This document shows positions 9,582-64,000 of a stretch of DNA of 64,000 bases, one piece after another. Positions within the stretch are counted from its first letter, which is position 1. Every line of letters starts with the position of its first letter. Position numbers and translations under genes: made by a program. A model generated the notes under the pieces. The model searched no databases. It was not told the DNA's origin and saw only the letters and a list, made by a program, of their open reading frames with translations. Source of the stretch: Sipunculus nudus (Eukaryota; Annelida; Sipuncula; Golfingiida; Sipunculidae); contig CM049319.1 of assembly GCA_026874595.1 (NCBI GenBank), forward strand, positions 63,062,917 through 63,126,916, given 5' to 3'.

Positions 9582-9998
9582 TTATAGACGTACCGTTGCA
9601 CTGCCTGAAGAAGAAACACTCATATCACTTATTCTGGCCAGTAATTCTGTACGATGTTTTGAGGCGTGCCTCAGACAGAAATGGCTGCCTGGGTCGATGA
9701 CGCTACCCCTGCGGAACCCCGTGGCAGACCCTCTCCGCTCATGTATGCCCGATTCTCTGGGGACGAAAAGGAGAATTGGTTTTTGTGAATTATCGTGTTT
9801 GGGGATGAGCTTTTCTTGTGCTATATGAATGGCACATGGTCCTTTGTATATGTCCCTTGTTGTATTGCTGACAACCGTGCCGTTGATAAGACACAAATCC
9901 GACATGGCGCTTGGGTCGACTTCAAAGTCTAGGCAGTTACTCAGGTCCACAACAACACATTGTTCCAGGTGTAGGCGGACTTTGTCTTGTGTCCAGCC
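9582..9998 (-). CDS. SLC9C1: SLC9C1 exon R: C-terminal cytosolic tail
   Basis: The exon starts after ttttcag with GGC TGG ACA in phase 0, joining ...QPSFY to GWTQDKVRLHLEQC. It encodes residues 852-989 of the visible product and is read to TAA at 9582-9584. It holds the end of the CNBD C-helix region and a tail rich in Ser, Arg and His (GSATGFRRGSVIDPG, SDMSVSSSGSA) with candidate phosphorylation sites. A perfect donor, GTACGT, lies at 9593-9588 exactly in phase 0, four codons before the stop. The true exon may therefore end at 9594 and splice further downstream. No AATAAA is evident just after the TAA on the minus strand. Confidence 0.85.
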   Translation of the reverse strand, partial: GWTQDKVRLHLEQCVVVDLSNCLDFEVDPSAMSDLCLINGTVVSNTTRDIYKGPCAIHIAQEKLIPKHDNSQKPILLFVPRESGIHERRGSATGFRRGSVIDPGSHFCLRHASKHRTELLARISDMSVSSSGSATVRL

Positions 9999-10267
9999 CT
10001 GAAAAGACAGTGTAAAAATAACATAAGTGAAAATACTGTAGATTTAAATACCGTAAAATACCGTTAAAATCGTAATATAGAGTAAAATACCGTAGAATAA
10101 ATAGCTATACCGTAAAAAAATTTAAAAAATATTTCAAAAGCTACACTAAGGCTACACGCTGTCCCTGTGTTTAAAACCTATGCAAACGATATTACCGATT
10201 ATTATGCATGTAAATAAACGCATATACACACACGGGGGGGGGGGGGGGGGGAGAATGTTGTACTTAC
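9999..10267 (-). other. Intron with 'taccgtaaaat' repeats
   Basis: A short intron. At 10030-10125 the motif 'aaataccgtaaaat' recurs five or six times with small changes. A G18 run lies at 10234-10251, and (CA)n just before it. Confidence 0.8.
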
Positions 10268-10405
10268 GTAAAACGATGGTTGGCTCATCAGGATGCTGAC
10301 AGAAAGACGGAGTGCGCAGACCCGCCACAGACGGTGTTCGAGGGAGGGTTCTTCCCTATACAAGTCAAGAGCGACACGCATGGCCTCCAAACTGACGAAA
10401 TATAG
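10268..10405 (-). CDS. SLC9C1: SLC9C1 exon Q: end of CNBD, C-helix
   Basis: I placed the acceptor at tattttag (10407-10406), which keeps phase 0 after exon P and gives LYFVSLEAMRVALDLY. Using the nearer 'cgtcag' would break the frame. The 46 codons (visible residues 806-851) cover the last beta strand and the amphipathic helix following the phosphate-binding cassette, ending RVCALRLSVSILMSQPSFY before a GTAAGT donor. Confidence 0.9.
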
Positions 10406-11283
10406 CTAAAATAAATAAAAAAGTTTTTTATATGCAACACTGAATCAAAGGATTATTAATTTTGGAATAAGGGTTGTAGTCGTATTTTAGAAATTACTGA
10501 GAGAACTGGCTTTTAAGAATCAAAACTAGAAATTATTGCGACCATGAAGGTCCTCAATCATAGGGTCCCTCAATGAACTCCAAGATGGCTGCCGGGATGT
10601 AATATTGGACTTCTAATAGGAGTGGAAATCAATAGCACACATCCGTTCAAAGTACGAACTTCAGTAACAAAATCATAGCAATTGCTCACACAAATCTCAA
10701 GAATATGCATAGAAATAAAAACTAAAACGCTCTTACGTAGTTCATGTAGTTTCTGACAGATAAAGCTTTGATAAAATGTCAAATGTCTTAGGATTTAAGT
10801 GAAATTATGGAAAATGCCCCCCCCCCCCCACCTAGCGGGACACATTTGGTACGAGAGTTCAGGAATAAAAGCGTTTTGATCCAAGGCGCTGCAATAGAGG
10901 TAGTGCGTGACAAAAGTCGAATGTCACAAACGTACATTATAATATGATATGAAGACAACTTGGGCGGGGATGCGGGGAAGCGAAAGTCTCAGTGTGCGTG
11001 TGTGAATTGCGGGGGGGGGGGGGGGGGGGCGTGTAAAGTGGCTCAGTCGTGATGCTTTCCCCTTGCTATATGGCAGCATTTACGACTTTGTGGGACATCT
11101 GTTGGTATACTATAAATAACTACTTCAAATTCCTACCCAAATTCCTATCCTGAGCCAGTTTAAAAATTCATGACTCAGTTAGATCTTTCAAGTTGCGCTA
11201 TAACGTGTTAGTTACACATTTTAGAGGCAAATAGAATAACTATTAGTCTAGAGGGGATTGAGGGGGAGGGGGTGTGTACGTAC
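10406..11283 (-). other. Intron, no gene recognised
   Basis: Holds a C13 run (10817-10829) and a G19 run (11011-11029) amid otherwise unremarkable AT-rich sequence. The minus-strand open frame at 10570-10782 lacks coding character. Confidence 0.6.
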
Positions 11284-11472
11284 CTGTACAGCGGTCTCAC
11301 ATATAACAGTTGCTTTGCGTTGCTCACCAGTTAGAACGGCCATCTCACCTAGAACGTTACCAGTGGTTAGATAATCACAGAATTTTTCTTGGACCTTTTC
11401 AAATTGACCCTTGTCATGGTGCATGTTTGTGATGCTTGAACCCCTCTGACTGTAATTCAAACATTTGTCCAC
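11284..11472 (-). CDS. SLC9C1: SLC9C1 exon P: CNBD with phosphate-binding cassette
   Basis: Phase 0 at both ends (acceptor tttttcag, donor GTACGT), 63 codons, visible residues 743-805. It contains TTGNVLGEMAVLTGEQRKAT, the phosphate-binding cassette: Gly-Glu-Met-Ala followed by Leu and an Arg before Ala-Thr, the pattern that contacts the cyclic nucleotide phosphate in CNBDs. Upstream is a hydrophilic insert (NYSQRGSSITNMHHDKGQ) in the loop between beta strands, longer than in HCN or CNG channels. In the family this domain binds cAMP; nucleotide specificity cannot be read here. Confidence 0.95.
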
Positions 11473-12383
11473 CTGAAAAAAGAGGAATATAATTATCAGA
11501 TTATAGTTAATTGAAGGGAAAGGTCAGTTGACATCATCGTTTATCTGGTTTGAAGAAGTCGGCAATAGGCAGTGACTATTACAACAGCAGGCTGTCATCC
11601 TCTCATATTTGTTCTACAGAATAAACTTTGGCCTACCTATTATTTCTACAGACTTAACAGTGGCCTACCTATTATTTATACAGATTAAACTTTGGCCTAC
11701 CTATTATTTCTACAGATTTAACAGTGGCCTACTTTTTATTTCTACAGATTTAAGAGTGGTTTACCTTTTATTTATACAGATTTAACTTTGGCCTACCTAT
11801 TAGTTCAACAGATTAATATTTGGCTTACCTTTAGTTCTAGATTTAACTTTGGCCTAGCTATTAGTTCTACAGAATAAACTTTGACCTGCGTATTAGTTCT
11901 ATAGATTTAAATTTGGGCTCACTATTATTTCTATAAATAAAACTTTGGCCTGCCTACTAGTTCTACAAATTAACTTTAGCCTACCTATTAGTTCTACAAA
12001 TTAACTTTAGCCTACCTATTAGTTCTACAGATCAAACTTTGGCTTACATTTTAGTTCTACAGATTAAACATATGCCTACCTGTAATTCCTACAGATTAAA
12101 CTTTAGCCTACCTATAGGTTCTACACCTTTAACTCTGGTTTACCTGTAAGTTCTACATATTTAACTTGGGCCTATATGTGGGTTCTATAACGAAGAACAT
12201 TCTAAAAGCGGAATCATTGGTCAGGGAAACACATTCATGGGGCACAGTCTTCCCAATAAGCCCGCAGAGCGTTCACCTGGACAGGGACCGGCCATGAAAA
12301 CTCTCACCGCTCCACGGCTGAGATTCAACCCTATGATTTCCAAGCATTACTCCACCTTCTAAAGCACAGAAGCCAATGCCTAC
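11473..12383 (-). repeat. Intron filled by tandem repeat of about 32 bp
   Basis: From about 11610 to 12195 there are roughly 17-18 diverged units carrying 'ttctacagat', 'taaactttgg' and 'cctacctattag'. In the minus-strand transcript these read as 'ctaataggtaggc' repeats, several of which resemble GTAGGT donors. The rest of the intron shows nothing recognisable. Confidence 0.88.
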
Positions 12384-12500
12384 CTGTACGGTTCTTTGGA
12401 CTTTTATGAGTCCAGACACGACGATATAAATGCCGCCGGTCGGGTCTCCCTCCTTCATGATCGTCTCCCCAGGTCCAAGGGATATCAGCTCGGCGTGATG
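12384..12500 (-). CDS. SLC9C1: SLC9C1 exon O: start of cyclic-nucleotide-binding domain
   Basis: 39 codons in phase 0 (acceptor tgttcctcag, donor GTAGGC), visible residues 704-742. The sequence SLGPGETIMKEGDPTGGIYI continues into VVSGLIKVQ, the classic CNBD beta-roll opening: Gly-Glu/Asp, EGD, then Y-I-V-x-x-G. It follows exon N directly in frame. Confidence 0.95.
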
Positions 12501-13162: not shown

Positions 13163-13288
13163 CTTGATATAAGCGATCAGGTCCACGTCATTGGCCACCC
13201 AGGTAAGGTTGCTGACCACGTGATCTGGAGGCGGGGGCGGGATGAGAGGCGGAATCTTCAATAGACGCTTCATCCTGACTTCCACCAT
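13163..13288 (-). CDS. SLC9C1: SLC9C1 exon N: linker before CNBD
   Basis: 42 codons, phase 0 at both ends (acceptor tcactgtag, donor GTAAGT), visible residues 662-703. It begins MVEVRMKRLLKIPPLIPPPP; the Met is internal, not a start. A five-proline run is followed by NLTWVANDVDLIAYIK. The Trp-containing helix preceding the CNBD matches the family's layout. Confidence 0.93.
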
Positions 13289-14634: not shown

Positions 14635-14719
<85 letters not shown>

Positions 14720-16075: not shown

Positions 16076-16224
16076 CACATTGAGTTTTCCAGCCTCCGTT
16101 TCGTCTAGGACACCCTCCCCTCGCAGTTCAAATATTTTGTCTCGGACATTGTTGAGAATTCTTCTAGCAGCCTGCTGAGTTTTCACTGACACTGCGATTC
16201 CCGGATGTTCACGAGCAAGTATTC
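16076..16224 (-). CDS. SLC9C1: SLC9C1 exon M: post-voltage-sensor cytosolic region
   Basis: 149 bp (two bases completing a Gly codon, then 49 codons), acceptor cttttaag, donor GTCAGT, visible residues 612-661. It reads ILAREHPGIAVSVKTQQAAR then ILNNVRDKIFELRGEGVLDE. The 'HPxxAVxVKTxQA' pattern with a downstream Gly-hydrophobic-Asp-Glu-x-E helix is typical of the helical linker in SLC9C proteins. Phase joins exactly to exon L upstream and exon N downstream. Confidence 0.93.
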
Positions 16225-16483: not shown

Positions 16484-16521
<38 letters not shown>

Positions 16522-16984: not shown

Positions 16985-17065
<81 letters not shown>

Positions 17066-20341: not shown

Positions 20342-20543
20342 CTAAAGCTCTGATAATTTGAAGACGACCGTCCTCTAACACTGTCTTCATCTCGTCAGCG
20401 ATACGTTTGTTGTCGACCATGTGATCCACCAATTTCGCCACTTCCTCTTCGCCCATGACGTAACCCATACCTACGTCATATCCGAAACGCAACTGTATGC
20501 TAATGCGACCATTAAGCCATCCGATCACTTGAGGAATTAAACC
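20342..20543 (-). CDS. SLC9C1: SLC9C1 exon L: cytosolic region just after S4
   Basis: Acceptor tttcatag, donor GTAACT, 67 codons plus one base, visible residues 545-611. GLIPQVIGWLNGRISIQLRF is followed by GYDVGMGYVMGEEEVAKLVD. The 'GYD(I/V)GxGYVxGEEE' signature is diagnostic for SLC9C exchangers. It joins exon K in phase 0. Plus-strand MITE copy a begins only about 30 bp upstream of the acceptor, so the branch-point region abuts or lies inside the insertion. Confidence 0.96.
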
Positions 20544-23822: not shown

Positions 23823-26679
23823 ATTTTTAGTTCAGCTGAATGAAAGTCATCTGAGCTACAGCGATCACTCTTTGTCCGTCTGGTCGTCTGTCGGTCCGTT
23901 AACAGGGCACAAATCTTAACTGCTGGACCTGAAATCTTCTCACTTGGCATCCTCGGAGGTCCATAGAAATCTCTTTGGAAACCTCAAATTAGGTCTCTGA
24001 TAACCATTCTCCGAGCTATGGGTCTCGTAAGTACCCCCCAGAATAATCAAAAGTTTGATACAAAAGCTCACGTATCTGAATAACTACTGCATCGATCACT
24101 ATGATTCTTTGCATGAATATTGATCATGGAATGTTCCATCAGTTCCTGCAAACCGGTGGCGCCACCTGTATTTGTTTTCTTATTTTTACGATTTTTTTCT
24201 CTATTTTTGAGACCTTCAAAGAAGTCGTCAATTGTTAACAAGGCGTACATCGTGAACGCTGGTCTTGGAATCTTCTTACTTGAGGAAAAGTCTATGTGGA
24301 AATGTGAAATTAGGTATCTGTTACCCATATTCTTGGAGCTATGGGGCTCAAAAGAACCCCTCAGAATAATTATAAATTTAATACAAAAGTTCCAGTATCT
24401 GAATAACTAATGCATTAATCACCATGATTTTTTGCATGCATAATGATCATGGTCTGTTTCTTAAGTTCTGCATACTGGTGGTGCCACCTGTATTTTTTTT
24501 TCGAATTTTCACGCATTTTTTCCTCTACTTTTGAGACCTTCAAATAAAGCCTAATTTGTTAACAAGCACAAATCGTGAACGCTGGACCTAGAATCTTCAT
24601 ACTCGACATCGAGTGAGATCATTGAAAAATATCCTTGTAAACCTGATATTAGGTCTCTGTTACCTATATTCTCTAGGCTATGGGGCTCGAAAGTACCTCA
24701 CAGTATAATTATCTGAATAACTACTGCATTGATTGCTGTGATTCTTTGCATGCTTTTCGATCATGGAGTGCTTCATCAGTTCCTGTAGACTGGTGGCGCG
24801 ACCTGTATTTTTTTTTATTTTTCATGCATTTTTTCTCTATTTTTGATACTTTCGAATGAAGCAGTCATCTGTTAACAAGGCACAAATCGTCAATGTTTGA
24901 CCTAGAATCTTTTAACTTGACAATCAGGGAGGTCCATAAAAAGTCTTTATGGAAACCTGAAATTAGGTCTCTTTTACCCATATCCTCTGAGCAATGAGGC
25001 TCGTAAGTACCCCAAGAATAATTAAAAATGTGATACAAAAGCTTCTGTTTTTGAATAACTAATGCATTGATTGCTATGATTCTTAGCATGCTTTTTTGAT
25101 CATGGAGTGCTTCATCAGTTCCTAGAGTGGTGGCTACACACCCCGCCCCCCCCCCCCCATCATGAGGCCATGAGGCATGTTGTTTTCAGTGCCGTCGTCT
25201 GTCATCGCCGTCCTCATCTGTAGGATATCTTGTGAACGCGATAACTTTTGAAGGGCTGCATATTTTCTGCCTAAATTTGAAACACTCAATTGTTCATACC
25301 AAAATCGCGCATGAGTTTGAAAACCAGTGACCTTGGCCTTCATCTTCAAGGTAAAATCTGCCAAAATGTGAATTTTTTTGTGAACCCCATACCTTTTGAA
25401 GTATTCCACATTTTTTCCTCAAATTTGGTACATATATTATTTCTGCCAAGTTCTTGGAAGATTTCGAAAACCGGTGACCTTGACCATCATCTTCAAGGTC
25501 AAATCTGCCAAAATGTAAAATAATAACCCCATAACTTTTGAAGTATTATATATTTTGTCCTCGAATTTGATACAACAATTGTTCCTACTAAATTCAAGGA
25601 CAAGTTAAAAAAAAAGTGACCTTGACCTTCATCTTCAAGGTCAAATCTGCAGAAATATGACAGTTTTTGTGAACCCCATAACTTTTGAAGTATTTTACAT
25701 TTTGTCCTCAAGTTTGATAGACCAACTGTTTCTACAATGTTCTCTTACAAGCTCAAAACCTGGTGACCTATACCTTTCTCTTTAAGGTTAAATTGCCGAA
25801 ATGTAACATTTTATGAACCCCATAAGTTTGTAGTATTCCAATTTTTTCCTCAAATTTGGTACACCAATTGTTACATCAAGCTCTCGGACGAGTTTGAAAC
25901 CTGGTGACCTTGACCAATATCTTCAAGGTCAAATCAGTGGAATTATAGTTATTGTCCTGTGGACAAGATAATTTTTGAAATCTTGGACGTGATAGAAATC
26001 CTGTGACCTTGACTTTGATCTTTAAGGTCAAATTTATGCAATTCTAGGCATATTTTTACCCCAATAACTTTGTACACAAGTTCTTTCTGCTAAAATGTTA
26101 TCAGAGTTTGAAAAGCGGTGACCTTGACCTTCAAGGTCTTATCTGCTTAGATCGAGATTCATTGTTTAAAGATATTGCATATTTTACTCCTAATGTTATG
26201 GGATGACCCATAGGGGGAGACATATATATGTTTAGCGCTGCAAAAACAGAGCCATTCTAGTTTCAATTATTTACACATTTTATGTCTATTTTTGAAAACT
26301 TCAAATGAAGCTATATTTCGCAAATTAGGAGAGAAAACATGATTTTGAAGCACCAAGTGAGTCAGATGAGGCATAAATTGTATCCATTTGGCCTAAAATC
26401 CTCATACATGACTTTCAGGTAGGTCCCTTAAAAACTCCTTGGAAATCTGAAATGTCACTCTGACCCATTTTCTACAAGCTGTGTGAAAGAACTTGATTTT
26501 AACACTAAATTAGTCAGGAGGGCATAAATGGTAGCAGCTGCATGTAGATTAAGGTCACTGTAACCTATATCTAAGGGCTATTGGCAAAATGCATGATTTT
26601 GACTCTGAGAGTCTTTTTGCCCATTGTTCAAGGCTCCTTGAATTCAGCTGAGCGTCATGGCCTACGGGCCACTTGTTTT
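23823..26679 (+). mobile_element. Helentron-like non-autonomous element E1
   Basis: The 5' terminus 'tttttagttcagctgaatg' leads into 'agtcatctgagctacagcg' and 'atcactctttgtccgtc'. The 3' terminus reads 'ttcagctgagcgtcatggcc', then tac and 'gggccacttgttt', a GGCC-loop-GGCC hairpin just before the end. The same two termini, with different but still paired hairpin bases, bound the element at 28268-31824. Inside are about four type-A units (23880-25130) and about seven type-B units (25200-26180). No Rep/helicase is present. A subterminal TCAGCTGA near each end plus a 3' hairpin is the layout known for Helentron/HINE elements; the assignment is inference. Confidence 0.65.
25200..26180 (+). repeat. 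Type-B tandem array, unit about 145 bp
   Basis: About seven units, each with 'ccttgaccttcatcttcaag' (an imperfect palindrome), 'gtcaaatctgccaaaatgt', 'aaccccataacttttgaagt' and 'cctcaaatttggtac'. Divergence increases toward the right end. It lies within E1. Confidence 0.9.
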
Positions 26680-28267: not shown

Positions 28268-31200
28268 AAACAAGTGACCCTTGGGTCATGACGCTCAGCT
28301 GAATGGGAAGAGATTAGCTAAAGGAAATTTTATCATCTGAATGGTAGTATATACCCATTCAACTGAAGCATCAAACAGATTAACCAACAGGCCAAGATTG
28401 TGTCTGTTTTTATATATCTCAAAAAAAGAGAAAAAGTGCGTAAAAAATACAGGTTGCTCCACCAGTCTGCAGAAACTCAAAAAAGACTTAATGGTCAATA
28501 TGCATGCAAAGAATCATGGTGATCTCTGCATTAGTTGTTCAGATACTTCAGCTTTTGTATCAAATTTTCCATTATTCTGAGGGATACTTCGGAGTCCTAA
28601 AGCTTGAAGGATACGGGTAACAGAGACCTAATTTCAGGTTGCCACAGACACTTTTCATGGGCCTCCTTGCATGACAAGAATGAAGATTCTAAGTCCAGTT
28701 GTTACGATTTGTACCCTGTTGACAGATAACCTATTCTTTAAAGGTCTCAAAAATAGAGAAAAAAAATCGTAAAAATTTGAAAAAAATAGAGGTGGCACAC
28801 CCAGTCTGCAGAAACTGATGGAACACCTCATGATCAATATTTATGCCAAAAATCATGACCATCAGTGTTGTAGTTATTAAGATTCTGCTGTTTTTGTATC
28901 AAATTTTTCATTATTATGGGGGGTATTTTGGAGCCATACAGCTTAAAGGATATGGGTAACAGAGACCTAATATCAGGTTTCCATTGAGGCTTTTCATGGG
29001 TCTCCCTATGTGTCAAGAATGAAGATTCTAGGTCAAGTTGTTATGATTTGGGCCCTGTTAACAGATGTTCATATCTTTATAGGACTCAAAAATAGAGAAA
29101 AAAATCGTAAAAAAGCTGAACAAATGCAGGTGGTGCCACCAGTCTGCAGAAACTGATGAAACACTCCATGATCAATATCCTTGCAAACAATTATGGTGAT
29201 CTCTGCATTAGTTGTTCAGATACTTCAGTGTTGTATCAAATTTTCCATTATTCTGAGCTGTACTTTGGAGTGCCATAGCTCAAAGGATATGGGTAACAGA
29301 GACTTAATTTCAGGTTTCCATGGAGACTTTTCATAGGTCTCTCACTGTGTCAAGAATGAAGATTCTAGGTCCAGTCTTTACGATTTGTGCCCTGTTAACA
29401 GATGTTCACATTTTTAAAGGTCTCAAAAATTGAGAAAACTATTCGTAAGTAAACGAAAAATACACATGGCGCCACCAGTCTGCAGAAACTGATGAATCAC
29501 CTCTTGATCAATATGTATGCCGAAAATCATGACCATCAGTGGTGTAGTTATTGAGATGTTGCAGTTTGTTTTTATCAAATTTTTCATTATTCTGGGGGGG
29601 GGGGGGGGGTGGTAATTGGGAGCCACACAGCTCAAAGGATATGGGAAACAGAGAGACCTTATTTCAGGTTTCCATGGAGACTTATCATAGGTCTCTCAAT
29701 GTGTCAAGAAGGAAGATTCTAGGTCCAGTCTAAACGATTTGTGCCCTGTTAACAGATGTTCACATTTTTAAAGACCTCAAAAACAGGGAAAACAATTCTT
29801 AAAGAATCTAAAAATACAGGTGGCGCCACCAGTCTGCAGAAACTGATGGAACATCTCATGATCAATATGTATGCAAAAAATCAGTATGAAATTTTTGACT
29901 ATTTTGGGGGGGGGGGGGGTACTTTGGGGCCCCATAGCTCGAAGGATTTGGGTAACAGAGACCTAATTTCAGGTTTCCATGGAGACTTTTCATAGGTCTC
30001 TCACTGTGTCAAGAATGAAGATTCTAGGTCCAGTCTTTACGATTTGTGCCCTGTTAACAGATGTTCACATTTTTAAAGGTCTCAAAAATTGAGAAAACTA
30101 TTCGTAAGTAAACGAAAAATACACATGGCGCCACCAGTCTGCAGAAACTGATGAATCACCTCTTGATCAATATGTATGCCGAAAATCATGACCATCAGTG
30201 GTGTAGTTATTGAGATGTTGCAGTTTGTTTTTATCAAATTTTTCATTATTCTGGGGGGGGGGGGGGGGGTGGTAATTGGGAGCCACACAGCTCAAAGGAT
30301 ATGGGAAACAGAGAGACCTTATTTCAGGTTTCCATGGAGACTTATCATAGGTCTCTCAATGTGTCAAGAAGGAAGATTCTAGGTCCAGTCTAAACGATTT
30401 GTGCCCTGTTAACAGATGTTCACATTTTTAAAGACCTCAAAAACAGGGAAAACAATTCTTAAAGAATCTAAAAATACAGGTGGCGCCACCAGTCTGCAGA
30501 AACTGATGGAACATCTCATGATCAATATGTATGCAAAAAATCAGTATGAAATTTTTGACTATTTTGGGGGGGGGGGGTACTTTGGGGCCCCATAGCTCGA
30601 AGGATTTGGGTAACAGAGACTTAATTTCAGGTTTCCATGGAGACTTTTCATAGGTCTCTCACTGTGTCAAGAATGAAGATTCTAGGTCCAGTCCATACGA
30701 TTTGTGCCATGTTAACAGATGATCACATTTTTAAAGGTCTCAAAATTAGAGAAAAATATTCGTAAAAAATCGAAAAATACAGGTGGCGCCACCAGTTTGC
30801 AGGAACTGATGGAACATCTCATGATCAATATTTATGCCGCAAATCAAGACCATCAGTGTTGTAGTTATTGAGATGTTACAGTTTGTTTTTATCAAATTTT
30901 TCATTATTCTGGGGAGTAATTGGGAGCCCTACAGCTCAAAGGATATGGGTAACAGAGACCTAATTTCACGTTTCCATAGAGACATTTCATAGTCCCCTTA
31001 ATGTGTCAAGAATAAAGATTCAAGGTCCAGTCTATACGATTTGGGCCTTCTTAACAGATGTTCACATTTTAAAGGGTCTCAAAAATAGAGAAAACAATTC
31101 GTAAAGAATTGAAAAATACAGGTGGCGCCACCAGTCTACAGAAACTGATGAAACACTCCATGATCAATATGTATGCCAAACATCATGACCATCAGTGATG

Positions 31201-31824
31201 TAGTTGATGAGATATTGAAGTTTTTGTATGAAATTTTTGTCTATTTTCGGGGGTAATTTGGGGCCCCATAGCTCAAAAGATATGGGTAACAGAGACCTAA
31301 TTTCAGGTTTCCATGGAGACTTTTTATAGGTCTCTCACTGTGTAAAGAATGAAGATTCTAGGTCCAGTTTCTACGATTTGTGCCTGGTTAACAGATGATC
31401 ACATTTTTAAAGGTCTCAAAAATTGAGAAAACTATTCGTAAAAAATCGAAAAATACATGTGGCGCCACCAGTCTGCAGGAACTGATGGAACATCTCATGA
31501 TCAATATGTGTGCAAAAATCATAACCATCAGGGATGTAGTTAATGAGATATTGAAGTTTTTGTATGAAATTTTTGACTATTCTGGGGGGTACTTTAGGGC
31601 CCCATAGCTCGAAGAATATAGGTAACAGAGACCTAATTTCTGGTTTCCAAGGAGATTTTTATGGACCTCTCAGAATCTCAAGTTACAAGATTCTAGGTCC
31701 AGTGGTTACGATTTGTGCCTGGTTAACAGACAGACAGACGGACGGACGGACGGACGGACAGACAAACGACGGACAAAGAGTGATCGCTATAGCTCAGATG
31801 ACTTACAGTCAGCTGAGCTAAAAA
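28268..31824 (-). mobile_element. Helentron-like non-autonomous element E2 (inverted)
   Basis: Read on the minus strand it starts 'tttttagctcagctgactg', 'agtcatctgagctatagcg', 'atcactctttgtccgtcg', then (GTCC)n at about 31765-31728. It ends 'cagctgagcgtcatgaccca' and 'agggtcacttgttt' at 28268. The interior has ten type-A units of about 320-350 bp, each with 'ggtggcgccacc', 'ctgttaacag' and 'atgatcaatatgtatgc'. Same family as E1 but without the type-B array. Several units are interrupted by G14-G16 runs. Confidence 0.65.
29340..30650 (-). repeat. Recent about 657-bp two-unit duplication within E2
   Basis: 29340-29996 and 29997-30650 are almost identical across two type-A units, including the odd 'cgtaagtaaacgaaaaat' variant and the 'atgtatgcaaaaaatcagta' variant. 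They differ mainly in G-run length. Other neighbouring units are much more diverged, so this is a recent unequal-exchange event. Confidence 0.85.
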
Positions 31825-37751: not shown

Positions 37752-37955
37752 TTTTACAAGTTTGAGACTTCTGAGAAGACGCAATAAGCGGAAGATCTTG
37801 ACCAATCGAAGGATGCTAGGGCTGATGAAATCCATGATTTCCGCATTATTGAGAACAGTGAGGTCAAGGATTAGGTCAACGATGGACATGATGATGATGA
37901 CCAAGTCGAACTGGTTCCAGTGGTCGAAGAAGTACCATTTGTTGAAGGCGAGGAT
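37752..37955 (-). CDS. SLC9C1: SLC9C1 exon K: voltage sensor S3-S4
   Basis: 68 codons, phase 0 (acceptor ttctgttacag, donor GTAAGT), visible residues 477-544. It opens ILAFNKWYFFDHWNQFDLVI, where 'WNxFD' marks the start of S3, with acidic residues in S3 as countercharges. S4 is RLVKIFRLLRLLRSLKLVK: seven Arg/Lys at every third position, as in voltage-gated cation channels and sea urchin SLC9C1. S4 transfers the membrane-potential signal to the exchanger domain; hyperpolarisation activates the family member that has been studied. Confidence 0.97.
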
Positions 37956-39006: not shown

Positions 39007-39492
39007 TTAAAGCCAGCTATTCACCTTCTTCTTTTGAATCTGTGATTTCTGGCTAACTATGTGTACTTATTTATAAACTGTACGTAATATTTGTCAAGAA
39101 AAGTTCTTAAAATGCTTCTGTGACGGATGTATGCGGTTTGCTTATCTACAAATGGTTAGTAAACATGGTATACACGCGCCAGTGTTGACAAACCGAAAAA
39201 AAACAGTAACCTGAGGTGGATGGCTGCATACATGCAGAAACTGAGAGGTCATAAGTTGCAAAACGTCCTTTGAAAAACTCTGGTTCTATTAATTTGCCTC
39301 CAGATGTCCTTGTTGAATTTGTTTCGATTATTTGGCGGCCCCGCACATGTTATAAATACATTTGTAAGTGAATATAAACAGAACGCACAGCCTGTGTACA
39401 ATTGGGATCGGCGTTTCCGGCCAATTTTCAAAGAATGTTCATATAATTATCTTTAGTTAATTGACGTCAGATATCGGTATAGGCCCCTTTAA
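39007..39492 (-). mobile_element. TTAA-type MITE, copy b (inverted)
   Basis: TTAA at 39007-39010 and at 39489-39492. Read on the minus strand it begins TTAAAGGGGCCTATACCG and ends 'gtgaatagctggctttaa', like copies a and c. The interior shares 'caaattcaacaagg(a/g)catct', 'cgttttgcaactta' and a 'gtttgtcaacactg' block. The tandem duplication described below begins inside it. Confidence 0.75.
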
Positions 39493-40417
39493 GTTTAAGT
39501 TTTACAATCATGTATGTTAACCTTCTTGGTATGAGTGACAGGTTAACATTGCTTTAGGTCATTGAGATGACAGCGTAAAAGTATTATTCATTATTAACCA
39601 TTAATAACATTTGACCAAAAATAAGGTCGGTTTGTTGATCGTAAATTGGATAATACATCTTCACATATTAGTGGGTACATCCCACCCCTTACCACATTAG
39701 AGAAAAGAATTTGCACCTTTGACGAAAGGTAAGCATTTGTATGATACCAATGGGATGGACCCCCTCCCCTAACCACACACACACACACACACACATACAA
39801 AGACTTTTCAACCTATGCATAGATACAATATTCAAGATTTAAAACACACCTCCTCTATTGTTTTGTGAACAAAAAGAATGTAAACTCCCAAAAAAATTTA
39901 AATTCTGCTTTAAATCCATAAAATTGCAACATTTAATTTTAGCTTTTAATGGCTGAATGTCTCGATGTTGCTGAAGAGAATGAATTTTGTCCTATCGTTT
40001 GTGTCAGCTTCACATGAAACGCCGTGCGGATTGTCTTTTAAATATACACCATGGGTATTTTTGCAAGGAAAAGATAACCCACTGCAATATTTTGGAAATG
40101 TCTGAGACTGCAATGCACAGAAAATTTCTTAAACTGCATGAACAGATAATTTCTGAGACTGTGATACACAGATAGTTTCTGAGACTGCTCTGCAGCACTG
40201 TGACGCTTGACTGTTACTAATATAACTCCTATGTTAATTGTTCAAATCAGCGCTAAATGGTTCTGGTGAATTGGCATTCTTTTAATTTGCAAATCGGGGG
40301 CAGGGCTTATAATATGCCAAATCTGTGAGGGGTCGCGGTTGAGTGAGTGGGTGTGGAGAATCCCTCCCATCCCCTCACCTACGTCTCCCAAGAAACCGCG
40401 GCCATGTTTGATACCAA
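39267..40417. repeat. 1.15-kb tandem duplication, copy 1
   Basis: Nearly identical to 40418-41570. It starts at 'cctttgaaaaactctgg' inside MITE b. It carries over the exon J donor sequence at its right end (accaac at 40413-40418 next to ctt), so a decoy donor sits in the intron. Junctions share only 'ccttt', consistent with microhomology-mediated duplication. The two copies differ by a handful of changes and (CA)n length. Confidence 0.95.
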
Positions 40418-41570
40418 CCTTTGAAAAACTCTGGTTCTATTAATTTGCCTCCAGATGTCCTTGTTGAATTTGTTTCGATTATTTGGCGGCCCCGCACATG
40501 TTATAAATACATTTGTAAGTGAATATAAACAGAACGCACAGCCTGTGTACAATTGGGATCGGCGTTTCCGGCCAATTTTCAAAGAATGTTCATATAATTA
40601 TCTTTAGTTAATTGACGTCAGATATCGGTATAGGCCCCTTTAAGTTTAAGTTTTACAATCATGTATGTTAACCTTCTTGGTATGAGTGACAGGTTAACAT
40701 TGCTTTAGGTCATTGAGATGACAGCGTAAAAGTATTATTCATTATTAACCATTAATAACATTTGACCAAAAATAAGGTCGGTTTGTTGATCGTAAATTGG
40801 ATAATACATCTTCACATATTAGTGGGTACATCCCACCCCTTACCACATTAGAGAAAAGAATTTGCACCTTTGACGAAAGGTAAGCATTTGTATGATACCA
40901 ATGGGATGGACCCCCTTCCCTAACCACACACACACACACACACACACATACAAAGACTTTTCAACCTATGCATAGATACAATATTCAAGATTTAAAACAC
41001 ACCTCCTCTATTGTTTTGTGAACAAAAAGAATGTAAACTCCCAAAAAAATTTAAATTCTGCTTTAAATCCATAAAATTGCAACATTTAATTTTAGCTTTT
41101 AATGGCTGAATGTCTCGATGTTGCTGAAGAGAATGAATTTTGTCCTATCGTTTGTGTCAGCTTCACATGAAACGCCGTGCGGATTGTCTTTTAAATATAC
41201 ACCATGGGTATTTTTGCAAGAAAAAGATAACCCACTGCAATATTTTGGAAATGTCTGAGACTGCAATGCACAGAAAATTTCTTAAACTGCATGAACAGAT
41301 AATTTCTGAGACTGTGATACACAGATAGTTTCTGAGACTGCTCTGCAGCACTGTGACGCTTGACTGTTACTAATATAACTCCTATGTTAATTGTTCAAAT
41401 CAGCGCTAAATGGTTCTGGTGAATTGGCATTCTTGTAATTTGCAAATCGGGGGCAGGGCTTATTATATGCCAAATCTGTGAGGGGTCGCGGTTGAGTGAG
41501 TGGGTGTGGAGAATCCCTCCCATCCCCTCACCTACGTCTCCCAAGAAACCGCGGCCATGTTTGATACCAA
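40418..41570. repeat. 1.15-kb tandem duplication, copy 2
   Basis: This copy adjoins the genuine exon J. It repeats the MITE b fragment (to about 40650), a (CA)n tract (40925-40950) and a 'cagaaaatttcttaaactgc' / 'cagataatttctgagactgt' mini-repeat. Open frames within it appear in both copies but show no coding character. Confidence 0.95.
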
Positions 41571-41571
41571 C

Positions 41572-41769
41572 CTTTAACCCAGCTTCTAAGACGTAGATGC
41601 TGATGAATACGTAGTTGACTGCTGGGAATACCACGGTCTCTAGGTAAGGATGCATTGGCTCCGCCTGGTTGTCGAGCACCACCTCCCAGATGATGGGTAT
41701 CATGTTTAACACAATCAGGGCCGACATGATGCCCTCAAATATGTCCGACGAACAAATCTTGTACAGCAC
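41572..41769 (-). CDS. SLC9C1: SLC9C1 exon J: voltage sensor S1-S2
   Basis: 66 codons, phase 0, acceptor cttaacccag, visible residues 411-476. S1 is in FEGIMSALIVLNMIPIIWEV and S2 in FPAVNYVFISIYVLEAGLK. The Glu near the end of S2 is the usual S4 gating-charge partner. The donor is GTTGGT; reading past it gives VGIKHGRG and then a stop, so I chose the donor that joins ...EAGLK to ILAF, reproducing the S2-S3 pattern of voltage sensors. Confidence 0.95.
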
Positions 41770-42123
41770 CTGGGTTAAGAAAAGCAGACCACGTGTTAGC
41801 AAGAAATCACTGACTTCTGTAACCAACTGTAATATTATGTTATTTAAAAGAATTTTATATAATATCTGCCTTTATTAAGACCGGTCCGGTCCGGTCCAAA
41901 ATCTTGGGCTGGACCGGACCAGACCGTTAACACAAACTACCGCAGCTCTTATTCCTTGTCCGGACCGGTCCGGAAAGCTCTACCTATAAGTATATACTAA
42001 ACAGATGATTTTTAGAATTCAGTTTCAACCAACATATCGTCTTATGAGCTAGGAGTAATTAACCACTCAAAGAAGGACTCATTTGCTATGGAAAATGTAT
42101 TTAACGTAGGCAGCTGCAAAAGT
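41770..42123 (-). other. Intron segment with GGTCC-rich inverted words
   Basis: 41879-41975 holds 'accggtccggtccggtcc' facing 'ggaccggaccagaccg' and a third 'tccggaccggtccgg', able to form alternative hairpins. Function unknown. Confidence 0.7.
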
Positions 42124-47019: not shown

Positions 47020-47253
47020 CTTCAGTCCTTTGATCTTAGACACGGGTGTTTTGGTGTCTTTGGTGCTGTATTTGATTGTCTCGAGGCGCTTTTTTAGGTG
47101 CGCGTAAAGACCTCGGATCTGCCAGGTTTTTTTTACTTCCGTAAGGTCTATGAAGGCGTCTTCCTTGTCGGTGGCTACTTCCGCTGCTTCCACCAACTTC
47201 CGGACCGCCTCACGTGACAACATGCCATGTTCAAACTGCTTCCAGTAACTTGT
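47020..47253 (-). CDS. SLC9C1: SLC9C1 exon I: cytosolic linker before S1
   Basis: 78 codons, phase 0 (acceptor accacag, donor GTAAAC), visible residues 333-410. It begins TSYWKQFEHGMLSREAVRKL and continues with a long charged helix (VEAAEVATDKEDAFIDLTEV), then a basic segment KKRLETIK and SKIKGLK just before S1. The 'SYWKQFExGMLxxEAVxxL' helix is also present in other SLC9 proteins, where it follows the membrane domain. Confidence 0.95.
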
Positions 47254-48567: not shown

Positions 48568-48711
48568 CTTCTCAGCTTTGAGGACTCGCATACGTGCCTC
48601 GTTACGCATTTCCTGCATTTCTTTCTTTGTGGGTTCATTGGGCACCTCTGTATCACAGGTAGGACACTTGCTAAACCGGTCGTACGTGTCAGAAAGGCTG
48701 TTTAACTGAGC
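48568..48711 (-). CDS. SLC9C1: SLC9C1 exon H: cytosolic linker with CxxC
   Basis: 48 codons, phase 0 at both ends (acceptor tgttatcag, donor GTGAGT), visible residues 285-332. It reads AQLNSLSDTYDRFSKCPTCD then a helical, charged segment EMQEMRNEARMRVLKAEK. The CPTC pair is a potential metal or redox site, but a second pair is not visible in this exon. The charged helix could form a coiled coil in the dimer. Confidence 0.94.
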
Positions 48712-49662: not shown

Positions 49663-49741
49663 CTCTTCATCCAAAGTATGATATGGATCTTCAATATCTG
49701 TGAATTTTTTCACGACATCCCAGTCCGCATCTGCCAGAAAC
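49663..49741 (-). CDS. SLC9C1: SLC9C1 exon G: linker
   Basis: 79 bp: one base completing an Arg codon, then 26 codons. Acceptor tattttcag, donor GTAAGT, visible residues 258-284, sequence FLADADWDVVKKFTDIEDPY then HTLDEE. 'DADWDxV' followed by an acidic stretch is typical of the region after the last exchanger helix in this family. Too short to stand out as an open frame; found by phase-matching between exons F and H. Confidence 0.93.
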
Positions 49742-50570: not shown

Positions 50571-50673
50571 CGGTCTGTGCGAAGGATGTTTAGGGAAACA
50601 CCGGCCCAGTCTTTCAGCGTCCGCACTGCGGTCGCCATGGCCATTCTTTTAGGACCCGAAATATCGCTCATAC
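50571..50673 (-). CDS. SLC9C1: SLC9C1 exon F: post-membrane linker
   Basis: 103 bp (2 + 33 codons + 2), acceptor cttgcag, donor GTGAGT, visible residues 224-258. It encodes GMSDISGPKRMAMATAVRTL then KDWAGVSLNILRTDR. The basic, amphipathic helix lies immediately after the final exchanger helix on the cytosolic side. The internal Met codons are not start sites. Confidence 0.94.
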
Positions 50674-52478: not shown

Positions 52479-53409
52479 TGTCACCAGAAAATCGGTGACA
52501 ATATGTACGGTGTTTTGTATCATAGTTTAACGAAGTCTGTTCTCTATTGATATTGACGTGAAGCGTCATCCTAAAGCGTTGACAGGTCTTGCATTGTATA
52601 TATATTGTGTATTATTATTTGAAATCCCATCGGCTATCAGCTGATTCATCTGTGTCACGCATTGCGTGTATTACATCTGGTATGTGGGTCGCCATGGTGA
52701 CGCTAGCAGTCATACTAGATCACATATATCCTTATATGTGACACTTGAGCCATAAGCCAATCAGAGAACCGGATCGCCGTACACAGTGCACAGGCGATTG
52801 TGACGTCGGAGTTCAGTGAGAGACGCGGGACGCTGCTTCAGTTGGGTCTTGAAGCTTGAAGAGGCAGCACGCACGCACGGCAGAAAGAACATTGAAACGC
52901 TTAAACCCGCCAGGAACGGCATAGAAGCAAGCTTCTACATGAGGCAAGGGCCCAGCTCACGAGATCACAGCCGTGCTGCCGACAGAGCATCGTATTGGCG
53001 GTAAAGTAAGTGCGCACGCGTCACCTGCTGGCCTAGTTCAGCTTGACCTTGATACATAATCGCTGTAAGCCGTGAAACAATTGCTACACGAGTAAGGTCA
53101 AGGACTCTACGCTCATATGTAAACAAAGAGAGCTATTACCATTCATGTAAACGTAAACCTACCCGGATCGCTGTCAAGCAAGATCAGTTGAAGATCGCTA
53201 AACTCAGAAAGACTATATGGTACTAGCCATACGCTAGATTCTACACAAAACAGTAACCAGAGATCTCTGAAGGAACTGGACTTTATTGTTTTCATACAAA
53301 CCATTGACTCAGTAAATATCCTGTATTTTTAATGTGAAGGACTGTCGTATTGACACATCAACGCACACACACTCACATCTATGTCTCTGTATGTATTGTC
53401 TGTGTGACA
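52479..53409 (+). mobile_element. 5' LTR of a Gmr1-like retrotransposon
   Basis: 931 bp, beginning TGTCAC and ending GTGACA, which are mutually inverted ends. It matches 56032-56952 with about 27 differences counted by eye, including small indels. A tata-rich 'attgtatatatattgtg' lies near 52595. A 62-65 codon frame is shared by both LTRs, probably by sequence identity alone. The putative primer-binding site tggcgagcgtgctagga follows at 53415-53431. Confidence 0.92.
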
Positions 53410-54135: not shown

Positions 54136-55966
54136 ATGGAGTCGTTAAGTTCACTTGTTAGATGCGGACAGGCCTTGGGACTTAAGGACCAGGCTTTACA
54201 AGATTATGTTGAGGCTAGACGGCGTGCGGATGAGGAACGTGAGGAAAGAGCTAGGCAACGTGAAATAGAGAGTGAACAGCGGGAATTAGAGCGCGAGCGA
54301 GAGGCTAGAGCCCACGAATTAGAGGTTCTAAGGTTAAAGTCTGACTCTGGGGTTAAAGAAGAGAGAAGTAGGGATGTATTCCCGAAAATCCAGCTTCCAC
54401 CTTTTGATGAGGCTCACGATCAGCTAGATGCGTTTCTTGAGCGATTTGAACGGTTAGCTGTATGTCAAGGCTATGATAGGGAGAATTGGGCGTTACACCT
54501 GAGTCCGTTACTGCGGGGTAAGGCGCTAGGGACTTACACACAGTTTTCGGTTAGTGAGGCCATGGATTACGATAAGTTAAAGATAGCCTTGTTAAAGCGA
54601 TACCAAATGAGGGTTATCGACACAAGTTTCGGACTTGTAGGCCTGAGCGAGGCGAAACGCCGAGTCAGTTTGCGGTGAGACTAAGTGGATACCTAGACCA
54701 TTGGATAGGGATGGCAGGGGTCGGAGGTGACTACGACGGGGTAGTTAACCTGTTGATGTGCGAGCAGTACGCAAACTGCTGTAGTAGGGATCTCTCTATG
54801 TTTTTGAAAGAGAGACGGTGTCGTGACTTTGATAGTATGGTAGACTTAGCCGAGAGTTATACGGAGGCTCACGGTGTACACAGCCTTACAGCAGGTCCTA
54901 GTTATGGCAATAATGTGCCGCGTCCAGCGCAACCGGTATCTCAGCCTAGAAAGAAGCGAGAGGTTGGGCGCAGTCCGGGCGGTCAGACATTTAAGCCATC
55001 AGGAGGCATCAGATGTTACTTATGTAATCAACTGGGACATAAGGCGCGGGTGCGTAAGACTAGTGTCCGGTCGAGGCCTAGGTTTTCCCCTCAAGTAGGG
55101 CGTGCTGCTGGCGATCAGCAGAGGTATAGGACTAATTTTAGCCCCCCGTATAGCCCAAAACAGAAGCCTGAGACTATGTCAATGGCAGGAGTCGAGGCGG
55201 AAACGGAGACAGTCGGTGCGGTGAAACCGGAAGTAGAGAGTCCGAGTCAGTCGTTAGGATTTGCTGCCCAGACAGAAGGCGGAAACTCGTTACCTGTGTG
55301 TGAAGGGCTGGTGAATGGTAAGTCAGCGAGGGTGCTGCGGGATTCGGGATGTTCCTCGGCAGGAATACGTGAGTCGTACGTCGAGCCGAATCAGTTCACC
55401 GGACACCAGGTCGAGTGTAGGTTGTTCGACGGGTCTGTAAGACAATTTCCTACGGCTAGTATTAATGTGGACTGTGCGTTCTTTGTCGGTACTATCGAGG
55501 CAATGGTGGTCGGGGATGCTGTATGTGATTTAGCGCTAGGTAACGTAGCGGGAGCGCGTGATCCGTATGATCCGGACCCTACGTGGAAGTCTGAGCGGTC
55601 CTCAGGCATAGTGTGTGACGGTGTAGAGTCACAAAAGGAGGTGTCGTCCGCGGTGGAGACACGGAGCGCTGCACGTGAGAAACAGATACCGACGCGTAGC
55701 TTGAATGTTGCAAGCCCAGTTGCCGATGTGAGTCCGGCCGAATTTTTGAATGCGCAGGAGGAGGATCAGTCTTTAGCGCCGTATTGGAGGCTAGCTAGAG
55801 AGCTAGAAATGATAGTCCATTTAGAATTGAGGACGGATATTTAGTTCGGGTTGTGAGTGATAAACGGGGAGATCAAGATGGATCTCGAGTGGTGGTACCT
55901 CAGACGTTACGGTACGACGTCATGAGGATGGGCCATGAAGCGGTTATGGAAGGCCATCAGGCATAG
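54136..55966 (+). pseudogene. Broken gag-protease-integrase fragment of a Gmr1-like retrotransposon
   Basis: From ATG 54136: a strongly charged coiled-coil region (to about codon 75), then a gag/SCAN-related helical domain (LPPFDEAHDQLDAFLERFER). A frameshift at about 54610 moves the frame to that of 54675-55844. It continues with a zinc knuckle CYLCNQLGHK whose fourth ligand is lost (Arg instead of Cys), then an aspartic protease with RDSGCSSAGI. A second frameshift near 55810 leads to RVVVPQTLRYDVM and an H-x6-H pair, the start of the integrase zinc finger. The frame stops at 55964. Reverse transcriptase, RNase H and the rest of integrase are missing. Inactive. Confidence 0.88.
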
Positions 55967-56031: not shown

Positions 56032-56952
56032 TGTCACCAGAAAATCGGTGACAATATGTACGGTGTTTTGTATCATAATTTAACGAAGTCTGTTCTCTAT
56101 TGATATTGACGTGAAGCGTCATCCTAAGGCGTTGGCAGGTCTTGATTGTATATATATTGTGTATTCTTGTATGAAATCCCATCGGCTGTCGGCTGATTTA
56201 TCTGTGTCACGCATTGCGTGTATTACATCTGGTATGTGGGTCGCCATGGTGACGCTAGCAGTCATACTAGATCACATATATCCTTATATGTGACACTTGA
56301 GCCATAAGCCAATCAGGGAACCGGATCGCCGTACACAGTGCACAGGCGATTGTGGCGTCAGAGTTCGGGGAGAGACGCGGGACGCTGCTTCAGTTGGGTC
56401 TTGAAGCTTGAAGAGGCAGCACGCGCGCACAGCAGAAAGAACATTGAAACGCTTAAACCCGCCAGGAACGGCATAGAAGCAAGCTCCTACATGAGGCAAG
56501 GGCCCAGCTCACCAGATCACAGCCGTGCTGCCGACAGAGCATCGTATTGGCGGTAAAGTAAGTGCGCACGCGTCACTGCTGGCCTAGTTCAGCTTGACCT
56601 AGATACATAATCGCTGTAAGCCGTGAAACAATTGCTACACGAGTAAGGTCAAGGACTCTAAGCTCATATGTAAACAAAGAGAGCTATTACCATTCATGTG
56701 AACGTAAACCTACCCGGGTCGCTGTCAAGCAAGATCAGTTGAAGATCGCTAAACTCAGAAAGACTATATGTTACTAACCATACGCTAGATTCTACACAAA
56801 ACAGTAACCAGTGATCTCTGAAGGAACTGGACTTTATTGTTTTCATACAAACCATTGACTCAGTAAATATCCTGTATTTTTAATGTGAAGGACTGTCGTA
56901 TTGACACATCAACGCACACACACTCACATCTATGTCTCTGTATGTATTGTCT
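56032..56952 (+). mobile_element. 3' LTR of the Gmr1-like retrotransposon
   Basis: Begins TGTCACCAGAAAATCGG like the 5' LTR and matches it to 'tatgtattgtct', but lacks the last eight bases (gtgtgaca). No target-site duplication can therefore be recognised. The truncated end suggests a rearrangement after insertion. Confidence 0.9.
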
Positions 56953-58199: not shown

Positions 58200-58281
58200 C
58201 TAGGACTTTTAAGAGATGTCTGATGGAGGTAGCGTTGAGGACCAGAGTAAGTAACACGATTCCGGCCGTGTGGAATAAAAT
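58200..58281 (-). CDS. SLC9C1: SLC9C1 exon E: last exchanger membrane helix
   Basis: 82 bp (27 codons + 1), acceptor gttttgtag, donor GTAAGT, visible residues 197-223. ILFHTAGIVLLTLVLNATSI then RHLLKVL matches the final membrane helix of SLC9 exchangers ('xxFxxxGIVxLTLxxNGxT', here N-A-T), followed by a basic cytosolic turn. Too short to appear as a long open frame; located by phase and homology. Confidence 0.95.
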
Positions 58282-59969: not shown

Positions 59970-60141
59970 CTTATTACCGACCACCAGCTGATTCACGGAA
60001 CTGTCCTGAGCTACAAGTAAAGCCAGGGTGAGGCCGACAGCACCCCTCAGACCGCCCCACGTCATCACGGCACCATTCTGCCACGACAATCCGTACCCGA
60101 TACGCATCAACAGTGGACTAAACAGAGCGATGGTCACTCCT
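59970..60141 (-). CDS. SLC9C1: SLC9C1 exon D: exchanger core, WGGLRG motif
   Basis: 172 bp, acceptor tttatttcag, donor GTAGGT, visible residues 139-196. It contains GVTIALFSPLLMRIGYGLSW and TWGGLRGAVGLTLALLVAQD. The 'W-(G/S)-G-L-R-G' segment with its Arg is the most conserved SLC9 signature (equivalent to the TM11-12 region of mammalian NHEs) and is needed for folding and transport. Its first half and 5' intron are duplicated upstream at about 60211-60330. Confidence 0.97.
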
Positions 60142-60210
60142 CTGAAATAAATTGAAAAAAAAATTTACAGTGATTTTAATATGTCCAGTGTAGGTTTAAA
60201 AGTAAAAGAA

Positions 60211-60330
60211 AATCCGTACCCGATACGCATCAACAGTGGACTAAACAGAGCGCTGGTCACTCCTCTAAAATAAATTGAAAAAAAAAATTACGGTGATTTT
60301 AATATGTCCCGTGTAGGTTTAAAAGTAAAC
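60211..60330 (-). pseudogene. Partial duplicate of exon D 5' half plus flanking intron
   Basis: This is a direct copy of about 60088-60208. It repeats 'aatccgtacccgatacgcat', 'caacagtggactaaacagag' and 'tcactcctct(g/a)aaataaat', with about five substitutions. The acceptor AG is retained (tttag instead of ttcag). The copied coding part would carry ATC to AGC (Ile to Ser) and lacks the rest of the exon and its donor. Confidence 0.93.
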
Positions 60331-60445: not shown

Positions 60446-60486
<41 letters not shown>

Positions 60487-60915: not shown

Positions 60916-61059
60916 CTGATAATATTGATAGCACAGTATAATGCCACCATGTAGAACCAGTCACTTCCCGACATGCCTTGCACGGCACGCTGCGTGATGA
61001 CCACGCCCACAACCATGAAAATAAGAGTATTACACAGATACGCCAACATCTCCCAGAAT
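60916..61059 (-). CDS. SLC9C1: SLC9C1 exon C: exchanger membrane helices
   Basis: 144 bp, acceptor tatattttcag, donor GTATAA, visible residues 91-138. Sequence FWEMLAYLCNTLIFMVVGVV, then an extracellular or re-entrant loop ITQRAVQGMSGSDWF and a helix YMVALYCAINIIR. 'FWEMxxYxxNTxIFxxxGV' is a strong SLC9 motif. Confidence 0.97.
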
Positions 61060-62446: not shown

Positions 62447-62555
62447 CTGTGTAAGAATTTTTCCACCTCAGGGCTGATACTGGTTCTCTCAGCACTGAGT
62501 ACCAGGCCTAGTACTACCACAGCCAGAACACCAGATACCTTCATTATCGCCTCCC
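62447..62555 (-). CDS. SLC9C1: SLC9C1 exon B: exchanger membrane helix
   Basis: 109 bp, acceptor ttccctag, donor GTTAGA, visible residues 55-90. Encodes GEAIMKVSGVLAVVVLGLVL followed by SAERTSISPEVEKFLHR. The 'SGVLAVVxxGLxL...R..ISPEVExFLHRFWE' run across exons B and C is characteristic of SLC9C proteins. Phase joins A (one base) and C (two bases) exactly. Confidence 0.96.
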
Positions 62556-62628
62556 CTAGGGAAACAGAACAGTCCAGCATTAAAAGTAAATCGTGATATA
62601 AGGAATTTCAGCTATATTGTTTATATCA

Positions 62629-62688
<60 letters not shown>

Positions 62689-62696
62689 TATGTATG

Positions 62697-62731
<35 letters not shown>

Positions 62732-63125
62732 ATTATTATTAATAATAAGTCCGACAAGGAGCGTGGCGGTTAGCTGTGCCTTGTGGATTCGACACTGCTA
62801 AGTGATACCTTTTCAATTGCGTGGTGTGTGTGTGATGGTATGTGTGTGGTTATGGGGGGGGGGGGGGGGGTCAGTTATATACGCAATGGGCGAGCAGAAA
62901 TTGATACAGATCTCATACTCAAAAATGCGAAGGCTTATTAAATATGTACATTTAATTGTAACACATGTCATTCATGTACAGCTACTGTTGTGTTGGGGGC
63001 CGATGAGTCAGTATTGCATATCGCGAGTTTTGTCAAGTGAAATTGTATACAAACCAGGGACCCTGACAAAAACATCGCCATTATCTTGTAGTCGAGACCG
63101 AATTTGTAACTACAATCACTTGTGA
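62556..63125 (-). other. Intron segment with microsatellites and G17
   Basis: (TA)n at 62632-62682, (AAT)n to about 62750, and a G17 run at 62854-62870. No exon. Confidence 0.7.
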
Positions 63126-63580
63126 TAAAAGGGTCCCAATGACCTATCCGACCATAAAAAAACTAAAGATAATCCCTTGGAGCTTTTGTAAAAAAATAGG
63201 CCAGTAAACGTAGGTATCACTGCACCCAGGCTGCTTGTTTTGCTTATATCAACCTGTTTGTAATATATGGGGGATCACCAAATAATCAGAACAAATTCAA
63301 CACGGGCATCTGGCAGCAAGTCAGATAAGCCAGAGCTTTGCCAATGGCGTTTTGCAACAAGTGACCTTTCTACCACCACATATATACAATCTTAGGTTAC
63401 ATTTTCCCCCATTTATCAACAATATTGTGTTTACAAACATGATGTTGATAAACAAATTCAAACATCCTTTACGAAGGCGTTTTAAGAACTTTTCACAACC
63501 AAAATTACCCTTAGATCATTAAATATACACAGAGGAAGCCAGAAATCACGTAAATTCTTTTTAAAAAAGTAGATGAATGA
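63126..63580 (+). mobile_element. TTAA-type MITE, copy d
   Basis: Aligns by block order with copy c: 'gggtcccaatgacctatc' at the left, then 'caaattcaacacgggcatct', 'ccagagctttgccaatggcg', 'caacaagtgacctttct' and 'gaggaagccagaaatcacg' near the right end. Its ends are more decayed than those of copies b and c, so the exact boundaries are uncertain. Confidence 0.65.
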
Positions 63581-63836
63581 ATAATTCAACAAATCTGATC
63601 TTATTTGTCAGTGTAACTGACTCGTAGACTCAGTGTCAGATGTCACCGGCACGAGGCGCTTGAGGTTGAAAGGTGCATTATTTATGCACGAAATTTCAAA
63701 GACAAGAAAAAGAATCAACCTCTAAACGGTCAAGCGCATAAACGCAGCAGTGTGGAAATATATGTAAATTCGATATAGTGCTATAATGTATTTGGGACCA
63801 GCTGTGTGTGTGTGTGCGTGTATGTCGACAACTCAC

Positions 63837-64000
63837 CAACATAGAATGTGATGTAGGTGGCAGCCAGCGTAATGGTGATCTCAGTCAGGGCGTCATTGAA
63901 GATATTAACCAACCAAAAAGTAGTGATCTTCCCCATGAGGAACCCGAACGCTGGCCCGCCCAGCGCCACCTGCACGAAGGACTTAATCACATAGCCAGCT
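63837..64000 (-). CDS. SLC9C1: SLC9C1 exon A: exchanger membrane helices (cut by window edge)
   Basis: The exon continues beyond 64000; 54 codons plus one base are visible, with donor GTGAGT at 63836-63831. VIKSFVQVALGGPAFGFLMG is followed by FNDALTEITITLAATYITFY. The Asn-Asp and Thr-Glu-Ile-Thr residues in consecutive helices fit the SLC9C exchanger domain. No start codon is assigned because the true N-terminus lies upstream. Confidence 0.95.

Follow-up and report, generated by a model that had tools for sequence, protein, structure and literature searches.

A probable SLC9C1 (sNHE) orthologue in Sipunculus nudus, seen over its 3' three quarters

The stretch of Sipunculus nudus DNA analysed here (the window; 64,000 nucleotides of contig CM049319.1, assembly GCA_026874595.1) carries on its minus strand, running from 64000 to 9582, 18 exons of a gene of the SLC9C1 (sNHE) type. 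All 17 introns, which range from 269 to 17,208 bases, are of the GT-AG kind, and the phase agrees at all 17 exon junctions, so the original prediction of eighteen exons in perfect phase holds. The spliced frame runs for 989 codons without an internal stop and ends in a single TAA (last base 9582); the remaining two frames of the identical splice contain 60 and 51 stops. Exons have a G+C fraction of 0.488 (0.565 at third positions), introns one of 0.372. Exon borders were set by hand from splice sites and phase agreement, and are firm for most exons. In the following list, coordinates are window positions, Sp denotes the residue numbering of sea urchin SLC9C1, CNBD is the cyclic nucleotide-binding domain, and the hand model is compared with a splice-aware alignment described below.

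Exon 1 of the window, 63837..64000, minus strand: Sp 265-315, 30/51 identical; touches the window edge; splice-aware alignment begins at 63978.
Exon 2, 62447..62555, minus strand: Sp 316-351; hand model and splice-aware alignment.
Exon 3, 60916..61059, minus strand: Sp 352-399, terminating within the R399 codon; hand model and splice-aware alignment.
Exon 4, 59970..60141, minus strand: Sp 400-454, WGGLRG with R431; hand model and splice-aware alignment.
Exon 5, 58200..58281, minus strand: Sp 455-482, end of the exchanger domain; hand model and splice-aware alignment.
Exon 6, 50571..50673, minus strand: Sp 483-516, past a 7.5-kb retroelement-bearing intron; scoring of phase-compatible candidates and splice-aware alignment.
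Exon 7, 49663..49741, minus strand: Sp 517-544, FLADADWD; hand model and splice-aware alignment.
Exon 8, 48568..48711, minus strand: Sp 545-591; alternative start 48705 in the splice-aware alignment.
Exon 9, 47020..47253, minus strand: Sp 592-669, linker; hand model and splice-aware alignment.
Exon 10, 41572..41769, minus strand: Sp 670-750, first part of the voltage sensor with Y743 and E746; acceptor 41769 preferred over 41826.
Exon 11, 37752..37955, minus strand: Sp 751-815, second part of the voltage sensor with D767 and the seven S4 charges.
Exon 12, 20342..20543, minus strand: Sp 816-883, past a 17.2-kb intron; hand model and splice-aware alignment.
Exon 13, 16076..16224, minus strand: Sp 884-932; hand model and splice-aware alignment.
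Exon 14, 13163..13288, minus strand: Sp 933-974; hand model and splice-aware alignment.
Exon 15, 12384..12500, minus strand: Sp 975-1009, first part of the CNBD; 3' border uncertain in a variable loop, splice-aware end 12402.
Exon 16, 11284..11472, minus strand: Sp 1010-1064, CNBD with the phosphate-binding cassette, R1053 kept; 5' border uncertain, splice-aware start 11445.
Exon 17, 10268..10405, minus strand: Sp 1065-1110, C-helix of the CNBD with R1097; hand model and splice-aware alignment.
Exon 18, 9582..9998, minus strand: Sp 1111-1244, C-terminal domain and TAA stop; splice-aware alignment reaches 9603.

Three exons involved a choice between candidates. The gap between exons 5 and 7 offered 298 phase-compatible candidates for exon 6. 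The top score, 26, went to one of them and to a shorter version that shares its end; among unrelated candidates the highest score was 11. Exon 10 could also start from an upstream acceptor at 41826, which adds 19 residues, is open and in phase; we rejected it because the pyrimidine tract is, by eye, better at the 41769 acceptor, which also gives an insertion-free alignment with the sea urchin protein and was the one chosen by the splice-aware alignment, so that 41769 is the most likely start. At exon 4, a ~122-bp tandem duplication of 95% identity (60085-60206 / 60208-60329) copies the acceptor and the first bases of the exon; the copied acceptor, at 60264, was rejected as the main form, its use leading to a stop after 33 codons. 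A second tandem duplication (1.16 kb, 99.5% identity, 39267-40422 / 40418-41575) reaches four bases into exon 10, so the donor of that exon is present twice; it is either recent or an effect of assembly.

The splice-aware check that the original prediction had proposed was made by dynamic programming against sea urchin SLC9C1, run without knowledge of the hand borders. It also returned 18 exons, 13 of them with borders identical to those of the hand model. Each of the remaining five disagrees at a single border: the outer end in exons 1 and 18, the start in exon 8 (by 6 bases), the end in exon 15 and the start in exon 16, the last two disagreeing where they meet, in the variable loop. A tblastn search of the window with the sea urchin stretch gave 20 matches, all on the minus strand and including all 18 exons, with E values below 0.001 for 15 of the 18 and of 0.002, 0.12 and 0.012 for exons 2, 11 and 14. 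The two additional matches were the duplicated part of exon 4 (E 0.010) and, in intron 11, a chance match (E 7.5). As controls, the reversed window yielded no tblastn match, and each of five order-1 Markov simulations yielded one or two, the best at E 1.2 and none below E 1.

We compared the 989-residue product with protein chains in the PDB at a threshold of E 1e-30; this library holds solved structures only, and sea urchin SLC9C1 served as the sole SLC9C reference. The best match supports the original prediction's assignment to the SLC9C family: residues 265-1244 of sea urchin SLC9C1 align in one 979-residue alignment with an E value of 1.2e-299 (8otq, 8u6z), or 1.1e-299 for 8pd2. Entries for the sea urchin protein are 8otq, 8pcz, 8pd2, 8u6z and 8xpq; 8PD2 is named SpSLC9C1 in PMC10620091, and the other four were judged to be the same protein from their length and printed rows. 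Identity amounts to 494 of 951 aligned residues (52%). By region, with limits that we set ourselves, it is 140/216 in the exchanger part, 104/194 in the linker, 53/129 in the voltage sensor, 81/140 in the helices following the sensor, 67/141 in the CNBD and 49/131 in the C-terminal domain. Human SLC9C1 was not among the PDB matches at E 1e-30 or better. SLC9C2 shares the domain order of SLC9C1, and our comparison covered only the latter, which leaves some room for an SLC9C2-like paralogue; we regard this as very unlikely, the counter-evidence being the 52% identity to sea urchin SLC9C1 over those 951 residues, a weak argument as SLC9C2 was outside the comparison.

We then compared 21 functional positions of sea urchin SLC9C1, as described in PMC6052114, PMC10620092 and PMC10620091, with the residues predicted here. 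Sixteen are identical (R399, R431, Y743, E746, D767, K800, R803, R806, R809, K815, F1032, L1036, E1044, M1045, R1053 and R1097), four are conservative (K797R, R812K, L1008V and I1042L) and one is changed. All seven S4 charge positions are positive (K797R, K800, R803, R806, R809, R812K, K815), five of them identical, as the original prediction had stated of the S4 charges; numbers in S4 other than R803 were counted from the printed sequence. The charge-transfer centre (Y743, E746, D767) is identical throughout, and the arginines of transmembrane helices TM11 and TM12, R399 and R431, are present. The latter belongs to the WGGLRG motif, likewise predicted and found in exon 4; it is numbered R441 in PMC10620091 and R431 in PMC10620092, and counting the Arg of GGLRG in the printed sequence gives 431, in agreement with PMC10620092. 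In the CNBD, the cyclic nucleotide monophosphate-anchoring R1053 and R1097 of the C-helix are identical. The single change is N1054 to Lys, in exon 16 (11284-11472), the residue following R1053. The phosphate-binding cassette, claimed to be intact, thus keeps its arginine and differs at the neighbouring position.

These residues also bear on whether the gene is decaying or was recently silenced, with exons in the window that have yet to lose their intact appearance. Pseudogenes of sNHE are reported for a bird and fruit fly in PMC6660944; here the exon 4 acceptor is duplicated and the N-terminus lies outside the window. Against decay stand 989 stop-free codons, 17 of 17 GT-AG introns and identity at 16 of 21 functional positions, and we consider it highly improbable. 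That the gene is likely functional is a fair inference, because the undisturbed 989-codon frame is accompanied by 52% identity to the sea urchin protein.

The product joins an exchanger (its C-terminal part only, within the window), a voltage sensor and a CNBD in one polypeptide, as expected of SLC9C1. When the three segments were scanned separately, Pfam models matched each: Na_H_Exchanger (1e-27), Ion_trans (8.6e-17) and cNMP_binding (9.6e-17). Eight SLC9C1 sequences head the PDB ranking at E 1e-30 or better, ahead of any other NHE, SOS1 or channel chain, and they alone span all three domains. SOS1-type exchangers, the next kind, follow at 2e-59 and weaker and are confined to model residues 1-361; sodium and calcium channels have their best stretches on the voltage sensor (first partial query; best 60 of 73 PDB matches). 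The Ion_trans match and S4 lie between exchanger and CNBD, where SOS1 has no voltage sensor. Such partial matches could point to an SOS1-like exchanger or cation channel with a single domain in common with SLC9C1; this reading is extremely improbable given the single 979-residue SLC9C1 alignment and the span of three domains, seen only in SLC9C1 among the matches at E 1e-30 or better.

Both ends of the gene require comment. The window starts near Sp residue 265, so about 264 N-terminal residues lie beyond base 64000 and the window holds roughly the 3' three quarters of the gene. Because those residues include the ion site, the gene is not almost complete, as originally predicted, and the intactness of all its key elements cannot be claimed; what stands of that claim is WGGLRG, S4 and the cassette arginine. 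Towards the C-terminus, the model ends opposite Sp residue 1244. A donor-like GTACGT at 9593 directly precedes the stop, and a further spliced C-terminal tail may follow it.

Several observations count against a fully conserved, working SLC9C1. The ion-site residues D209 and the ND motif N237/D238 (PMC10620092, PMC10620091) precede Sp 265 and are thus outside the window, and the model contains nothing equivalent to the last ~80 residues of the sea urchin protein (1325-residue chain, 8u6z). A Pfam scan of the whole 989-residue protein (E 0.001) listed Ion_trans and cNMP_binding without the exchanger model, and the NCBIfam CPA1 exchanger models were listed but fell under their cut-offs. The duplication at exon 4 supplies a second acceptor, the one leading to an early stop. 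Finally, cAMP/cGMP preference could differ from that of the sea urchin protein, because three positions are changed (N1054 to Lys, L1008 to Val, I1042 to Leu); the sea urchin Asn1054 is described as stabilising cGMP (PMC10620091).

Around the exons, the window is rich in repeats. Intron 5 contains a pair of ~920-bp direct repeats, 97% identical and resembling long terminal repeats (52479-53401 / 56032-56952), with gag-like frames between them in the orientation opposite to the gene. One of these frames (54579-55841) matches the Pfam SCAN model at 27.1 bits, just above the cut-off of 27, and three other frames scanned in the element had no Pfam match; together, the repeat pair and frames look like a retroelement. 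The 17-kb intron 11 holds repeats of ~310-340 bp at 23874-25134 and 28421-31751, in opposite orientations. Past the 3' end of the gene lies a 41-bp minisatellite of ~90 copies (4577-8262). Neighbouring genes were sought with Pfam at E 0.01 among 30 non-exon open frames, selected from 420 frames of at least 50 amino acids, and none matched. No tRNA was detected in the window by ARAGORN under its bacterial-code setting, and nothing there reached the Rfam gathering threshold.

Taken together, the window very probably carries an animal SLC9C1 orthologue, represented by its 3' three quarters, that would work as it does in sea urchin. The part of the gene present here shows its exon structure, its domain order and the conservation of residues that serve gating, support transport and anchor cAMP. 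Three of these residues were probed in sea urchin SLC9C1, where PMC6052114 describes a lowered gating charge upon replacement of R803, loss of exchange in R399A and loss of the cAMP shift in R1053Q; structures are given in PMC10620092 and PMC10620091. The sea urchin gating scheme is the best reading because R803, R399 and R1053 are all present here. By this scheme, the product would be a dimeric Na+/H+ exchanger, shut at resting voltage. Hyperpolarisation would move the positively charged S4 inward and release the exchanger, cAMP on the CNBD would allow activation at milder voltages, and the export of H+ would turn the cell alkaline. Dimer formation, control by voltage and cAMP, Na+/H+ exchange and expression in sperm are all inferred by analogy with sea urchin SLC9C1.

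In sea urchin sperm, PMC12867704 describes a mutual loop, in which soluble adenylyl cyclase is switched on by the alkalinisation that the exchanger produces, and the resulting cAMP shifts the exchanger. A role in sperm motility has its basis in work on sea urchin (PMC6052114) and mouse (PMC12557800), and for the present animal it would be carried over from there. PMC6660944 places sNHE only in Metazoa, mostly alongside CatSper, and describes Mollusca and some arthropods as having sNHE without CatSper. In CatSper-less lineages SLC9C1 would have to act on soluble adenylyl cyclase or some other target. Should the present animal belong to such a lineage, a voltage-pH-cAMP loop between SLC9C1 and pH-sensing soluble adenylyl cyclase might survive without the usual calcium-channel output, with Lys1054 altering the cAMP/cGMP preference; we think this combination unlikely. 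If this animal lacks CatSper, it would be a test case for the targets of SLC9C1-driven alkalinisation in such sperm. The gene itself is an unremarkable further copy of one already known, with a known mechanism and a published distribution in Metazoa. It contributes a single well-preserved SLC9C1 sequence, of use for comparing gating residues with those of a sea urchin, and leaves knowledge of the family unchanged.

How does the predicted protein compare with known exchangers? The SOS1-type chains 7y3e and 8jd9 ('Sodium/hydrogen exchanger 7', which we take to be plant SOS1) and 8iwo (OsSOS1) align with it over the exchanger domain and the start of the linker. Arabidopsis SOS1 differs: PMC6660944 describes it as having a CNBD and lacking a voltage sensor. 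With sea urchin SLC9C1, the model shares the order of exchanger, linker helices, voltage sensor, CNBD and C-terminal domain. It differs in the stretch joining the first two voltage-sensor helices, which is 15 residues shorter, and may differ in a CNBD loop, which is 12 residues longer net with the hand borders and shorter under the splice-aware ones. Between the two animals, R399, R431, the charge-transfer centre, the spacing of S4 and R1053 are constant, while position 1054 and the loops vary.

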